A DNA stretch of 61,601 bases from Chloroflexota bacterium (GCA_013151415.1 JAADII010000068.1:1-61601); one strand, 5' to 3'. Numbered from the stretch's first letter, positions 43,620 to 51,273 are shown. Program-made: numbers and translations. Notes: generated from the letters alone by a model not told the origin.

Positions 43620-43880
43620 ATGACAGGCATCACGCTTGAAGTGCCGGACGAGGTTATCCAGGCTACCCGTTTACCGGCCGATGAAATCGAACGAGAATTT
43701 CGAAAGGAGTTGGCGCTGGCGTTATATCAGCGCGGCGTGCTCTCGCTGGGTAAGGCGCGTCTGTTGGCGCAAATGACGCTCTGGGAATTTGAAGAACTGC
43801 TGGGAAAACGCAAAATCACCCGACATTATTCAGAAGCCGATCTGGAAGAAGATCTGAAATATGCCCTTGGTCATCAGTGA
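43620..43880 (+). CDS. UPF0175 family protein (antitoxin-like), copy 1
   Basis: 86-residue small protein with the UPF0175 pattern 'TLEVPDEVIQATRLPADEIEREFRKELALALYQRGVLSLGKARLLAQMTLWEFEELLGKR', a beta strand followed by a helix-turn-helix-like region. The family is regularly found ahead of PIN-like DUF3368 genes and is regarded as the antitoxin or DNA-binding partner. GGAG precedes the ATG by about eight bases. Its last 20 bases overlap the start of the DUF3368 gene. The protein itself looks complete, while its partner is frameshifted. Confidence 0.85.
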   Translation: MTGITLEVPDEVIQATRLPADEIEREFRKELALALYQRGVLSLGKARLLAQMTLWEFEELLGKRKITRHYSEADLEEDLKYALGHQ

Positions 43881-44362
43881 TTCCTCTACGCTTATCCATC
43901 TGGCAAGCATCGGGCGATTCGACTTGTTGAGAATTTTTTATGAGTCGCTCACCATTCCATCGATGGTGTGGCAAGAGGTTGTTGTTGAAGGGGGAGACAG
44001 GTGGGGAGCAAGCGAAGTAAGAAGGGCGCGGGAAGCGGGCTGGGTGCGCGTCGAATTTGTGCGGAACAGTGCGCTTTTGCGGCTATTGGCGCGCGACCCT
44101 GAACGCTGGGGAAGCGGAAGTGATCGCCCTGGCAATCGAAAGACAAGCCGATCTGGTGTTGCTGGATGAATCTGAAGCCCGCCGGGTCGCGGATTTGTAC
44201 GGTTTAGCCAAAACCGGGGTGATAGGCGTGTTAATACGGGCTAAAGTGGAAGGACAAATTGATTCGCTGCGCAGAGAAATGGACGCCTTACGAAATCAGG
44301 GCGGTTTCTGGATCGCAGAAGATTTGTATCATCGCGTTTTGAAAACGGTTCAAGAAATCTGA
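43861..44362 (+). pseudogene. DUF3368 PIN-like toxin gene, frameshifted
   Basis: The first frame encodes 'LVISDSSTLIHLASIGRFDLLRIFYESLTIPSMVWQEVV...' up to about 44,095. The second frame (+1) continues with 'TLNAGEAEVIALAIERQADLVLLDESEARRVADLYGLAKTGVIGVLIRAKVEGQI', the expected remainder of a DUF3368 protein. Skipping one base near 44,095 in GGCGCGCGACCC restores a ~166-residue protein (ALLRLLARTLNAGEAEV). The shift falls in an alternating GC run, so either replication slippage, a sequencing error or programmed frameshifting could explain it. If real, the predicted RNase is inactive. The domain carries the acidic residues of a PIN fold (D7, E115-E117 region, D of LLDE). Confidence 0.82.
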
Positions 44363-46207: not shown

Positions 46208-46270
46208 ATTATAGTGCTTTCGCTTGTTCGCTGGCAAACGGTGGACAGGACAAGAGCTTACGTGTATAAT
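46208..46270. promoter_or_regulatory. Divergent predicted promoters for aspS and the 1,376-residue protein
   Basis: Minus strand: TTGCCA (46,237-46,232), 18-base spacer, TATAAT (46,213-46,208), toward aspS. Plus strand: TGGACA (46,242-46,247), 17-base spacer, TATAAT (46,265-46,270), toward the gene at 46,361. The -35 boxes are only four bases apart, so polymerases would compete. Confidence 0.7.
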
Positions 46271-46360: not shown

Positions 46361-49300
46361 ATGGCCTCGCCTCTCAACGATTCCGAATACCTTTATGGCT
46401 TCCACGATCCCGGCGGCGAACATATCATGCTCGAGAAAGGGATTCCGGGTTGGGTGTTGGTGACCGAAGCCTTGGGCTATGAACCGAACGACCAAAGCGG
46501 TCGGAATTATCGTTTTCTCTCGGATCGGGGTCTGGGCGTGATGGTACGCCTAAACGCGGGCTATGGCGGCGTGGGAACCATTCCTTTTAGTCGCTTCTAC
46601 GATGACTTTGCTCAGCGCTGCGCCAATTTTGTGCGCAATTCCGATGGTTGTCATATTTGGATCATCGGCAACGAGATGAATCATCCCATCGAATGGCCAG
46701 GCGCTGATTGGGATTTCAATGCGGTTCCTCCTCGCCCGCGCAGCCAGGATAAGACGGGGGAAAAGATCACGCCGGAGTTGTATGTTCGCTGTTATCGCAA
46801 AGTGCGCGATGCAATTCGCGCCATTCCTGGCCGTGAAAATGATCAAGTAATCATTGGCGCAGTCGCGCCTTGGAACAATCTCACCACCTATCCGGGCAAT
46901 CCAACGGGCGATTGGATACAATATTTTCAGGATATTTTGCGTTTGTTGGGGCCGCAAAATTGCGATGGCATCGCTTTGCATACGTATACTCATGGCACTC
47001 ATCCTGATCTCATCGACGCCCCCACAAAGATGAGGCCGCCGTTTCAAAATCGGCATTATCATTTCCGCGCCTATCAGGATTTTATGCACGCCATTCCGGC
47101 TGATATGCGCCATTTGCCGGTTTATATAACGGAAACCGACCAGAATGACCCTTGGCGCAATGAAAACACGGGCTGGGTGCGGCGAGCTTATGGCGAGATC
47201 GACTATTGGAACAAAAACAATCCCCAACAGATCCGGGCGCTTATCCTCTATCGCTGGCCAAAACTGGACAAATGGTATATCGAGGGAAAGCAAGGCGTCA
47301 TCGATGATTTTCGCATGGCCCTGGATTGGAAACTGAAGTGGCGACGGGATGTTATTATCCCGCCTGTGGCCGCGCCCGATTATCGGGCGATGATCGATAT
47401 CCAACAGGCGCCGGTGGAAGGGCCGGCCGGCGCCGATGTGACCGTCATTGTCACGGTGCGCAACACCGGCGCGTTGCCTTGGCCCGCGGGCGGACGAAAC
47501 CCGGTGCGCCTGGGTTATCATTGGTATGATCAGGCTGGCGGCCGGGTTGCGGCCGCGGACTATCGCACGCGCTTGCCCAAGGATGTGCAGCCCGGCGAAC
47601 AGGTGACGCTGCGCGCTCGCGTTGGTTTGCCAGGACGGCCGGGCGATTTTGTCCTGGCTTTGGACATGGTGCACGAGGGGATCACCTGGTTTGCAGACCA
47701 GGGTGGCGCGCCCGCGCGTATCGAGATCAAGGTTGTGGGTGAGCCCGTGGTCATCGAGCCGGAAGAGCAATTTTTCCCCGAGACCAAAATTTGGGTGCGG
47801 GGCGTCTTCCTGCAATTTTACCGCCGCTATGGTCTGGATATCTGCGGTTATCCCATCACCGAGGCGTTCGAAGAGAATGGGATGCAGGTGCAGTATTTTC
47901 AACGAGTCGCTCTGGAGGAATATGAGCCGGGGAAGGTGCGCCTGCGCCTCACCGCACAGCAAGCGCTGGAGGCGGCCAAACGCATCGCCGCGCTGGAGCG
48001 ACGCATCAGAGCTTTGGAACAGGGACGTCTCACCGGCATGGCCCCGCGACCCGAGATTACGGATATCACCGAGCGACTCCCGCGCGACCCCGCGGGCATG
48101 TTCACCCGACCCGAAACCGATATCGAGTATATCGTCATCAATCACACCGCAGTGCGACCTGAGGTGCCGGTCGAGCGCATTGCCCGCGCCCACCGTCGCA
48201 CCTGGCCAGCCATAGTCAGCCAATTCTATATCCAAGGCGATGGCGCGATTTTGCAGACGAACCCGCTGGATGAAGTGGTGGATGACAGGCGTCCCTGGCT
48301 GCGCAACGCCATCAACATCCATGTGGCGGGCAATTTTTCCGCGGGCGTGCCCAATGAGGCGCAACTGGACGCGCTCGCGGCCCTGTGCGCGTGGCTGCTC
48401 GATCGCTATGGGCTGGACACCGAGGCCGTAAAGGGCGCCAAGGAGTTTTATAGCACGCAATCGCCCGGCAACAATTGGTTGGACGGCCCGCGCTGGAAAG
48501 ATATGCTCATCCAGCGCATTGAGCCTTTACGCGGCAGCGGCGAACCGCCAAGCCCGGAGGGCGCTGAAGATGAGGCTTTGCGTCAAGAATTAGAGCAAAT
48601 GACGCAAGCGCGCGATCGGTTGGCTCAATTGTTGCAACAGGCGAATGCGCGCATCGAAGAGCTGCAAGAGCAGGTGAGCGAGTTGCAACAAAGTTTGAGA
48701 GAGATAACCGGGGGCGGGGTGGCCGAACCTCGGGTGCGAGACGTGATCACCGACTTGCCTCGAGACCCGAGCAAGATGATTCGTCGTAGCGATGAAGACA
48801 TCAAGTTCATCGTCATCAATCATACGGCCGTGCCGCGCAGTGTGGGCGTGCAACGCGTGGCGCGCGCACATCGCGCGCGTTGGCCCGCCATTGTCTCGCA
48901 GTTTTTCATCGACGGCGAGGGCGCGATCCTGCAAACGAATCCGCTCAACGAGGTCGTGGATGACAAACAGCCCTGGATTTTGAACGGCGTCAACATTCAT
49001 GTGGCGGGCAATTTCAACGACGAGATACCCACCGAGGCTCAGCTAGAGAGCCTGGCCGACCTGGTCGCCTGGTTGCTAGAGAAATATGATCTGGATGAAG
49101 AGAGCGTCAAGGGTGTGCGCGAGTTCATCGTTACGCAGTCGCCGGGCGAGCAGTGGCAAAAGGGGCGAAAGTGGAAAAATACGCTCCTTAAAAAGGTGCG
49201 CGAACGCCGCGTTCAGAGCAAGCCGCTGCCGGGCGGCGTGACGGACGCGGTGAAATTGCGGGCTTTAGAACGCCAGGTGCGCAGTCTTGCAGAAAAAAAT

Positions 49301-50491
49301 GAGCGTTATTTGCAGGAGATCAAGGCGTTGAAGACGCAAGCGAAGCAGCTCGAAAAGGATCTGAAAGCCCGCAACGCGCAGATGACTCGCCTGGAGAGAG
49401 AGAATGAAAAGCTGAAAAAGCAACTGGAAGCGGCGCAAAAAGAAGGGGAGCAGGGTGAAGTGGTTGCGTCGTTGCAGAAGCGCATTCGAGCGTTGGAAAA
49501 GGAGCGGGACGCTCTCGCAGGAGAGCGAGATCAGTTATCGCAGACCGCGTCCGAATTGCAGCGCCGCGTCGAAGAGCAACAGTTGCAGATAGACGAGTTG
49601 CGTCGCCAGCTGGACGCCAGGACGGAGGAGGCGCAGCCCGCGCCTGGCGGCGTATCGAAACCACCTATGCAGGAATTGGTGGACAAGCTGCCCAAACATC
49701 CGACAAAACGCTACGACTCGCGCCCTCTTAGCCAGATCACGCATATTGCCATTCATCACAGCGCCGCGCCGGCCAACGTGCCGCCCGAACGCATTGCCAA
49801 TTATCATGTCAATCATCCCTCGCATCAGTGGCCGGGCATTGGTTATCATTATTACATTGGTCCAGATGGAACCATCTATCACACTCAAGACTTGAAACTG
49901 GCCTCTTGGCACGTATATAAAAACAACAGCTATACGGTTGGCGTGTGTGTGGCCGGCAATTTCACCGACGTGATCCCCACGCCCGCGCAAATCGACGCTG
50001 CCGCTCGGTTGGTCTCCTGGCTCATGCAAGAACTGAACATTCCTCTGGACAATGTGTGGGGGCATAAGGAATTTCCTTATAACGCCACCAGCTGTCCTGG
50101 TAGGCAATGGGTCGAGGACAAAGCATGGCGAAATTTGCTCATGGAGCGTATTCAGGCCGTGTTAGGTGGTGATGCCGGGCCTGCGAGCAAATCCATTTAT
50201 CATTACATGCTCTTCTGGCATCATGGCGATAACTGGGCCAAACAAGATTGGGAAGGCGCGGAAAACTACATTGCTCGCTTCCAGCCCACAGTTGGTTTCT
50301 CGGTCGAGGAGGCGAAGCAAGCCGAATATGTGACCATCGTCGGCGGCCCGGCGGGGGTTAGTCCGCAAGTGGACGATGAACTACGCGCGGCGGGCGTGAA
50401 GGTTGAACGCCTGGCTGGCAAAGATTTTGCCGAGACCAAAGCCATCCTCGATCGTCTGGCCGAGTCCGGACAGCGTTTCTTGAATTTTTAG
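46361..50491 (+). CDS. Multidomain glycosidase with three amidase (PGRP-like) domains (1,376 aa)
   Basis: Domains in order: clan GH-A-like glycosidase (~1-325) with E105 in 'IIGNEMNH' and E258 in 'YITETDQND' as likely acid/base and nucleophile; Ig-like module (~345-465); 'FFPET...GLDICGYPI' module (~470-545); amidase_2 domain 1 (~565-715); coiled coil (~725-775); amidase 2 (~790-950); long coiled coil (~960-1095); amidase 3 (~1105-1265); a CWB2-like end ('VTIVGGPAGVSPQVDDELRAAGVKVERLAGKD'). Only domain 3 keeps the zinc set (H1132/H1133, H1235, C1245). Domains 1 and 2 have A693/S701 and V919/S927 at the last two positions. No signal peptide is seen, although wall substrates are implied. AAGGAAC precedes the ATG. 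Confidence 0.85.
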   Translation: MASPLNDSEYLYGFHDPGGEHIMLEKGIPGWVLVTEALGYEPNDQSGRNYRFLSDRGLGVMVRLNAGYGGVGTIPFSRFYDDFAQRCANFVRNSDGCHIWIIGNEMNHPIEWPGADWDFNAVPPRPRSQDKTGEKITPELYVRCYRKVRDAIRAIPGRENDQVIIGAVAPWNNLTTYPGNPTGDWIQYFQDILRLLGPQNCDGIALHTYTHGTHPDLIDAPTKMRPPFQNRHYHFRAYQDFMHAIPADMRHLPVYITETDQNDPWRNENTGWVRRAYGEIDYWNKNNPQQIRALILYRWPKLDKWYIEGKQGVIDDFRMALDWKLKWRRDVIIPPVAAPDYRAMIDIQQAPVEGPAGADVTVIVTVRNTGALPWPAGGRNPVRLGYHWYDQAGGRVAAADYRTRLPKDVQPGEQVTLRARVGLPGRPGDFVLALDMVHEGITWFADQGGAPARIEIKVVGEPVVIEPEEQFFPETKIWVRGVFLQFYRRYGLDICGYPITEAFEENGMQVQYFQRVALEEYEPGKVRLRLTAQQALEAAKRIAALERRIRALEQGRLTGMAPRPEITDITERLPRDPAGMFTRPETDIEYIVINHTAVRPEVPVERIARAHRRTWPAIVSQFYIQGDGAILQTNPLDEVVDDRRPWLRNAINIHVAGNFSAGVPNEAQLDALAALCAWLLDRYGLDTEAVKGAKEFYSTQSPGNNWLDGPRWKDMLIQRIEPLRGSGEPPSPEGAEDEALRQELEQMTQARDRLAQLLQQANARIEELQEQVSELQQSLREITGGGVAEPRVRDVITDLPRDPSKMIRRSDEDIKFIVINHTAVPRSVGVQRVARAHRARWPAIVSQFFIDGEGAILQTNPLNEVVDDKQPWILNGVNIHVAGNFNDEIPTEAQLESLADLVAWLLEKYDLDEESVKGVREFIVTQSPGEQWQKGRKWKNTLLKKVRERRVQSKPLPGGVTDAVKLRALERQVRSLAEKNERYLQEIKALKTQAKQLEKDLKARNAQMTRLERENEKLKKQLEAAQKEGEQGEVVASLQKRIRALEKERDALAGERDQLSQTASELQRRVEEQQLQIDELRRQLDARTEEAQPAPGGVSKPPMQELVDKLPKHPTKRYDSRPLSQITHIAIHHSAAPANVPPERIANYHVNHPSHQWPGIGYHYYIGPDGTIYHTQDLKLASWHVYKNNSYTVGVCVAGNFTDVIPTPAQIDAAARLVSWLMQELNIPLDNVWGHKEFPYNATSCPGRQWVEDKAWRNLLMERIQAVLGGDAGPASKSIYHYMLFWHHGDNWAKQDWEGAENYIARFQPTVGFSVEEAKQAEYVTIVGGPAGVSPQVDDELRAAGVKVERLAGKDFAETKAILDRLAESGQRFLNF

Positions 50492-50502: not shown

Positions 50503-51273
50503 ATGCCCGATCCCCTGAAATTGCGCCCCGCGGATGATTATATTGTGCAGCTCGACGTGTTCGAGGGGCCTATGGACTTATTGCTGCACCTTATCGAAAA
50601 AGAAGAGTTGCCTATCACTTCGGTCAGTCTCGCCCAAATTACGGGTCAATATTTGGATTATCTTGCTCGCATGGAGGAGCTCAAGCCTGACGGCATTGCC
50701 GAGTTTTTGGTGATGGCCGCAAGGCTGCTTCACATCAAGTCATTGGCGCTGTTGCCGCAGCCTGAATCCGAGAGCGACGAAGAGGAGGAAGATCCGGGCG
50801 AGCGATTGGCGCGACAATTGCGCGAATACAAGCGTTTCAAAGAGGCCGCGGCGTTTTTGCGCGAGTTGGAAGCCGAAGGCAAGCGGGGTTATGTGCGCCT
50901 GGCCCCGCCTCCGAAATTGGAAAAGCGTTTGGACCTCACCGGCATTGATGTGAATGCGCTTTTGCACGCGGTGCGCGAAGTATTACAAGACCTCGACGCG
51001 CCGCCCCTCCCGGCCGCGTCCATTGAGCCGCATCGAATAACTGTGCAAGAGAAAATGGAAAGCCTGCGAGCCACTCTGGCGCGTCGCGGCGTTGTGCGAT
51101 TTCGTCAGTTTCTGCGACGCGCACGCTCGCGCGTCGAGGTCATTGTCAGTTTTATGGCTGTTCTGGAGCTGATCAAGCAAAACGAGGTTCGCGTGCGCCA
51201 GCCAGACTTATTCGGAGAAATTTGGATCGAGCGGCAGGAGGCGTCTGAGGAGCCGCAACCGCAAGTGAATTGA
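50503..51273 (+). CDS. scpA: Segregation and condensation protein A
   Basis: Kleisin subunit of the SMC-ScpAB condensin. The 256-residue protein starts with the ScpA block 'YIVQLDVFEGPMDLLLHLIEKEELPITSVSLAQITGQYLDYL', has an acidic middle (ESESDEEEEDPGERLARQLREYKRFKEAA) and a C-terminal winged-helix region (SRVEVIVSFMAVLELIKQNEVRVRQ). It follows the 1,376-residue gene by 11 bases and may be read from the same transcript. The partner gene scpB, usually next to it, is absent; a convergent flavoprotein gene follows. Confidence 0.95.
   Translation: MPDPLKLRPADDYIVQLDVFEGPMDLLLHLIEKEELPITSVSLAQITGQYLDYLARMEELKPDGIAEFLVMAARLLHIKSLALLPQPESESDEEEEDPGERLARQLREYKRFKEAAAFLRELEAEGKRGYVRLAPPPKLEKRLDLTGIDVNALLHAVREVLQDLDAPPLPAASIEPHRITVQEKMESLRATLARRGVVRFRQFLRRARSRVEVIVSFMAVLELIKQNEVRVRQPDLFGEIWIERQEASEEPQPQVN

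Follow-up and report, generated by a model that had tools for sequence, protein, structure and literature searches.

The window, the whole stretch of DNA that was analysed, comprises 61,601 nucleotides of a Chloroflexota bacterium and was found to carry a gene for a predicted leaderless, modular wall hydrolase (Table 1). An earlier note on this DNA had proposed a single open reading frame at positions 46361-50491, which the ORF call and the translation confirmed. The frame is preceded by an AAGGA-like ribosome site. The genome is that of a filamentous-type bacterium of Caldilineales type (Chloroflexota), the nearest named relatives of the gene being found in Caldilineales MAGs. The same note had stated that a signal peptide is absent, and this also held: neither a signal peptide nor a transmembrane segment was found by frame and hydropathy in the 1376-aa protein, because the open frame extends just 10 codons 5' of the ATG and hydropathy averaged over 19 residues peaks at 0.99 in the whole protein. 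An overlooked upstream start or signal peptide was ruled out, as the frame closes at that point, and no signal peptide was present in any homologue read.

From N to C terminus, the protein comprises a GH39-like barrel, an NBR1-like Ig domain, a short module, three amidase domains separated by two coiled coils, and a single CWB2-like domain. The full order of GH, Ig, short module, three amidases and CWB2-like domain is complete in 9 proteins, including that of the window; the remaining homologues are truncated at contig ends or lack one module. The CWB2-like C terminus was recognized in a PDB profile search (best E 4.4e-11), and among 27 members the Pfam CWB2 model matches just two (lowest E 0.0021), the usual CWB2 arrangement being three copies. 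The NBR1-like Ig domain, the CWB2-like C terminus, the conservation across many genera, the phage relatives of the GH domain and the linkage to scpA all go beyond the earlier note.

Table 1. Positions of the wall hydrolase gene, its modules and adjoining features in the window
Feature	Position	Strand	Basis
Promoter-like site TGGACA-17-TATAAT, 91 bp 5' of the ATG	46242..46270	+	11/12 consensus positions; pattern match only
Leaderless modular wall hydrolase, entire gene, 1376 aa	46361..50491	+	ORF, translation, orthologs
GH39-like TIM barrel, aa 4-329	46370..47347	+	AlphaFold model; Z 20-22 to GH39 enzymes, PslG
Presumed acid/base residue Glu105, immediately following strand 4	46673..46675	+	Invariant in 35 rows, including phage copies
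Presumed nucleophile Glu258, located on strand 7	47132..47134	+	Invariant in 35 rows, including phage copies
NBR1-like Ig domain, aa 349-458	47405..47734	+	Pfam N_BRCA1_IG E 0.003, below cut-off; Foldseek match to human NBR1 4ole; conserved
Short conserved module, aa 467-543, LGFP-like by eye	47759..47989	+	Conserved in orthologs; without Pfam match
Amidase domain 1 without a zinc site (Asn594, Ala693, Ser701)	48044..48511	+	Pfam, alignment
Coiled coil 1, about aa 730-785	48548..48715	+	Coiled-coil family matches
Amidase domain 2 without a zinc site (Asn820, Val919, Ser927; Ser846 in place of the Tyr)	48719..49189	+	Pfam, alignment, model
Coiled coil 2, about aa 963-1093	49247..49639	+	Coiled-coil family matches
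Amidase domain 3, intact: His1132, Tyr1162, His1235, Cys1245	49652..50143	+	Pfam, alignment, T7 lysozyme matches
Single CWB2-like domain, aa 1274-1374	50180..50482	+	Profile matches to C. difficile Cwp8, S-layer proteins, Cwp6
scpA-like gene, 11 bp downstream	50503..51273	+	Linkage conserved

The gene downstream is taken to be scpA-like from the features of the family and the gene order. At 18 other loci the wall hydrolase gene lies directly upstream of scpA on the same strand, and among the 30 best scpA loci of the class, 12 show the same order, several of them overlapping with the 18. Upstream, and on the other strand, the window has an aspS-like gene, as do several relatives whose contig reaches that far. 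These aspS- and scpA-like neighbours, shared by the window and its relatives, are not those of a phage lysis cassette, which is phage-encoded and includes a holin. Elsewhere in the window (43620-44362), a small gene pair resembles a toxin-antitoxin pair; its members are UPF0175-like and PIN-like by eye, the latter apparently split over two frames.

Amidase domains and their zinc sites

The presence of three amidase domains, as claimed in the earlier note, was established by Pfam (three Amidase_2 stretches, E 3.8e-53, 179.7 bits for the whole protein against a cut-off of 26) and by the endolysin family phrog_1493, which also matches in three stretches. Domains 1 and 2 share 60% identity and domains 2 and 3 only 34%, in agreement with the proposal that the first two are a duplicated module, closer to each other than to the third. 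The ligand columns were set with the sequence and zinc ligands of T7 lysozyme; together with the residue ranges of the PDB-search matches, this places His17 of T7 lysozyme at His1132. The Amidase_2 zinc ligands His, His and Cys and the catalytic Tyr are present in domain 3 and absent in domains 1 and 2. The residues given earlier for the second and third ligand positions of all three domains are correct, but the first histidine that domains 1 and 2 were said to keep (H595, H821) reflects a register error. The residues in the ligand column are Asn594 and Asn820, and since H595 and H821 sit in the column of the non-ligand His1133, neither domain has any of the three zinc ligands. The column of the catalytic tyrosine (Y46 in T7 lysozyme) is a serine in both domains. 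Thus the inspection of the zinc sites that had been suggested beforehand found all ligands and the tyrosine gone, and the zinc-site residues support the prediction that domains 1 and 2 are inactive and domain 3 is intact.

The AlphaFold model of domain 2 (pLDDT 97) has the PGRP fold, with Z 21 to the endolysin-type amidase LysC and Z 17-18 to animal PGRPs. By model and alignment, domain 2 therefore combines a PGRP fold with the absence of zinc ligands, which is what defines the non-catalytic PGRPs. Among PGRPs the three zinc ligands are kept solely in catalytic members, and in Drosophila PGRP-LB the replacement of Cys by Ser alone abolishes zinc (PMC8124813).

A survey of 87 amidase domains in 47 ORFs, drawn from the window and from relatives and paralogs, revealed a recurrent arrangement of dead and intact domains. 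All 14 three-amidase proteins have the order dead-dead-intact; in two-amidase proteins the first domain is dead (12/12) and the second intact (10/12). Of 50 dead domains, 45 have Ser in place of the Cys and 48 keep the second His. In the maximum-likelihood tree, the 31 dead domains of the protein type form one clade (support 100/98) with no active domain inside; the dead domains taken as a whole require several changes on the tree. The dN/dS values, based on three pairs with high dS, are 0.12, 0.08 and 0.08 for domains 1, 2 and 3 in the closest ortholog pair, 0.26, 0.37 and 0.22 in the second, and 0.44, 0.18 and 0.08 in the third, more distant pair, where domain 1 evolves faster than domain 3; in the first two pairs the dead domains and the active one have similar values. 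Loss of the sites in domains 1 and 2 is not decay, because the dead-dead-intact order is constant, the dead domains form a strongly supported clade, selection is purifying and the PGRP fold is kept. On these alignments, the dead domains appear as an old, constrained clade conserved across many genera. Among 201 genomes of the phylum, the dead-domain profile found few matches, several of them intact, and one dead domain outside the class, which is of the paralog type; it belongs to a 731-aa protein (L204) and has Arg and Ser at ligand positions.

Glycosidase module, phage relatives and paralogs

The N-terminal domain, the glycosidase of the earlier note, could be modelled as a clan GH-A enzyme. 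In the modelled TIM barrel, Glu105 follows strand 4 and Glu258 lies on strand 7; both are invariant in the alignment, which is the pattern expected for this clan. By sequence, the window copy has no Pfam match, and other members show weak DUF5722 and Glyco_hydro_cc matches.

The GH domain was found in 41 IMG/VR contigs at 35-52% identity. Several of the viral GH proteins, which stem from uncultured phages, also carry GH108, M23 and SLT, or muramidase domains. The GH39-like module is N-terminal in many of these proteins, with varied wall-hydrolase partners (L160-L200, IMG/VR). Among the genes near the viral GH genes are those for a major head protein and a large terminase and, on weak matches, holin-like and spanin-like genes; in one uncultured phage, holin-like genes lie beside the GH gene. 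No match to the GH domain was obtained among 50,697 reference phage records, and an origin in a known phage was ruled out on that basis. A tblastn search of the reference phages with domain 2 gave one weak match. Viral and chromosomal copies are intermixed in the GH tree, with weak support. The lysins of uncultured phages hence repeatedly contain this glycosidase module, which has no clear Pfam family.

Several paralogs combine a GH domain with a dead amidase as their only amidase. One contig of the same genome (C6; L009, 7240-12357) encodes tandem paralogs of 1006 and 655 aa. The former comprises GH, a dead amidase, an intact amidase and a CWB2-like domain, and the latter a different GH-like N terminus and a sole, dead amidase. 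The pair adjoins a two-component system and ABC-2-type permeases and recurs in three relatives (L066, L067, L068). The genome also encodes a 935-aa GH-like protein (L011, 4249-7056, minus strand) with repeats and the same CWB2-like C terminus but without an amidase. In a further fusion of the GH barrel with a wall hydrolase (L080, 69-2807, minus strand), a GH25-like end, recognized by eye (WQYSEKGDVPGI...), lies ahead of the same barrel and two Ig domains.

The earlier note had described this combination of domains as not known to its author, which is answered in part: the architecture is common to related Chloroflexota, and its modules are of the kind found in phage lysins. No description of the architecture was found in the open-access literature. 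Overall, the protein is best described as an endolysin-like, modular wall hydrolase with PGRP-like domains in tandem that are predicted to be non-catalytic.

Proposed function and comparison with known systems

With no signal peptide and a predicted active amidase 3, the protein has the sequence features of a leaderless peptidoglycan hydrolase of the phage endolysin type. Our preferred reading, to which we give about an even chance, is a chromosomal, endolysin-like wall hydrolase of Caldilineales and relatives that bears non-catalytic PGRP-like binding modules and acts once the membrane opens. Domain 3 and the GH domain would cut the wall, the former at the MurNAc-L-Ala bond and the latter, the N-terminal barrel, at a wall glycan. 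Domains 1 and 2 may hold peptidoglycan as non-catalytic PGRP-like modules, with the coiled coils as spacers and the CWB2-like domain as a further wall contact. This putative grip is suggested by analogy with the non-catalytic PGRPs and the staphylococcal endolysins, whose amidase domain aids wall binding (PMC6024855), and by the paralogs that have GH and only a dead amidase. The positioning at the wall suggested in the earlier note is also indirectly favoured by the constraint on the dead-domain clade and by its retained PGRP fold. Since no signal peptide is present, the protein would remain in the cytoplasm, like a phage endolysin, until the membrane is breached or some exporter releases it. 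A holin of the LrgA/CidA type was found in none of 21 genomes. Cell breakage of Caldilineae filaments would be a suitable setting; in Litorilinea aerophila (Caldilineae), filament breakage is accompanied by blebs and by end segments that are empty (PMC13319060). A more specific version is rather doubtful: a domesticated lysin of Caldilineae, stored in the cytoplasm, co-produced with scpA and aimed by the non-catalytic PGRP domains, which would destroy the walls of single cells so that filaments break.

Modules of the extracytoplasmic type without a signal peptide are a paradox if the cells must survive. The main alternative, which we regard as less likely, is that the same enzyme leaves living cells by an unrecognized leaderless route and serves as an ordinary autolysin that splits the septum in concert with the expression of scpA. 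The scpA gene that adjoins the hydrolase gene, in the same orientation, at 18 other loci is consistent with such a role, as are the Ig and CWB2-like modules, which are of the surface type. However, no exporter was identified, and a contractile injection system is an unlikely one: a phage-sheath gene is absent from the genome itself, which thus lacks a contractile exporter, and is present in just 2 of 19 family relatives. It is also conceivable, if rather unlikely, that domains 1 and 2 are structural, either spacing or oligomerizing the enzyme or binding to a partner protein rather than to peptidoglycan. The coiled coils adjoin both domains, the position of the former His ligand drifts, and T7 lysozyme, whose fold is the same, is also a binding partner of T7 RNA polymerase (PDB 1aro title). 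The PGRP precedent and the GH proteins with a dead amidase only argue against this explanation, as does the greater conservation of the groove-lining segments compared with the rest (1.15 vs 1.59 bits, P 0.005), these segments being hand-picked and including core strands.

Since a His (H595/H821) and a Glu (E921) are conserved near the site, residual activity of domains 1 and 2 through other ligands could be envisaged, yet all three ligands and the tyrosine are gone and the active domain 3 has the same His and Glu as extras, which makes it very improbable. Cytosolic muropeptide recycling by AmpD- and NagZ-like activities in one chain would account for the missing signal peptide, and AmpD has the same fold. 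AnmK is a marker of anhydro-muropeptide recycling; it is absent from the genome itself and present in 3 of 21 genomes, and a recycling enzyme was rejected because AnmK is mostly absent. The CWB2-like, Ig and tandem dead modules are also ill-suited to soluble fragments, and the phage partners of the GH domain are lysins, so that recycling is improbable. Although the modules are of the phage-lysin type, a prophage remnant or a recent capture of a phage lysin has hardly any likelihood, given that the aspS- and scpA-like housekeeping neighbours are conserved across genera and that amidase and GH were never found in one protein among the viral contigs retrieved.

Bacterial tandem dead amidases inside a wall hydrolase make the idea that a dead amidase acts as a wall grip directly testable, and a leaderless hydrolase beside scpA might bear on filament breakage in Chloroflexota. 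Non-catalytic amidase-fold domains of animals are well known immune receptors. Compared with the non-catalytic animal PGRPs (PGRP-SA, -SD, -LC, -LE and human PGRP-I), domains 1 and 2 share an amidase fold without zinc ligands, the replacement of the Cys and selective constraint. In contrast, they are bacterial and in tandem within a wall hydrolase, they lack the invariant Tyr of PGRPs as well, and their binding is putative.

Domain 3 resembles phage endolysins of the Amidase_2/T7-lysozyme type (LysC, Ts2631, Ph2119; phrog_1493) in fold, zinc ligands and Tyr, and the protein as a whole is likewise leaderless and modular. It differs from them in being chromosomal and encoded beside scpA, in its length, and in having two extra dead amidases and a GH39-like partner; no holin gene was seen near the window gene. 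In the staphylococcal endolysins LysSA12 and LysSA97, the central amidase mainly helps wall binding, as proposed here for domains 1 and 2, whereas their main enzyme is a CHAP domain and their amidase domain is single (PMC6024855). The barrel shares with GH39 and other clan GH-A glycosidases (PslG, beta-xylosidases) the TIM fold and the Glu residues after strand 4 and on strand 7, but at 12-17% identity, and it is fused to wall hydrolases. Finally, the CWB2-like domain is held in common with the Clostridioides CWB2 wall proteins (Cwp6, Cwp8, SlpA), of which Cwp6 also has an amidase; the window protein has a single partial copy where those have three, lacks a signal peptide, and carries Amidase_2 instead of Amidase_3.
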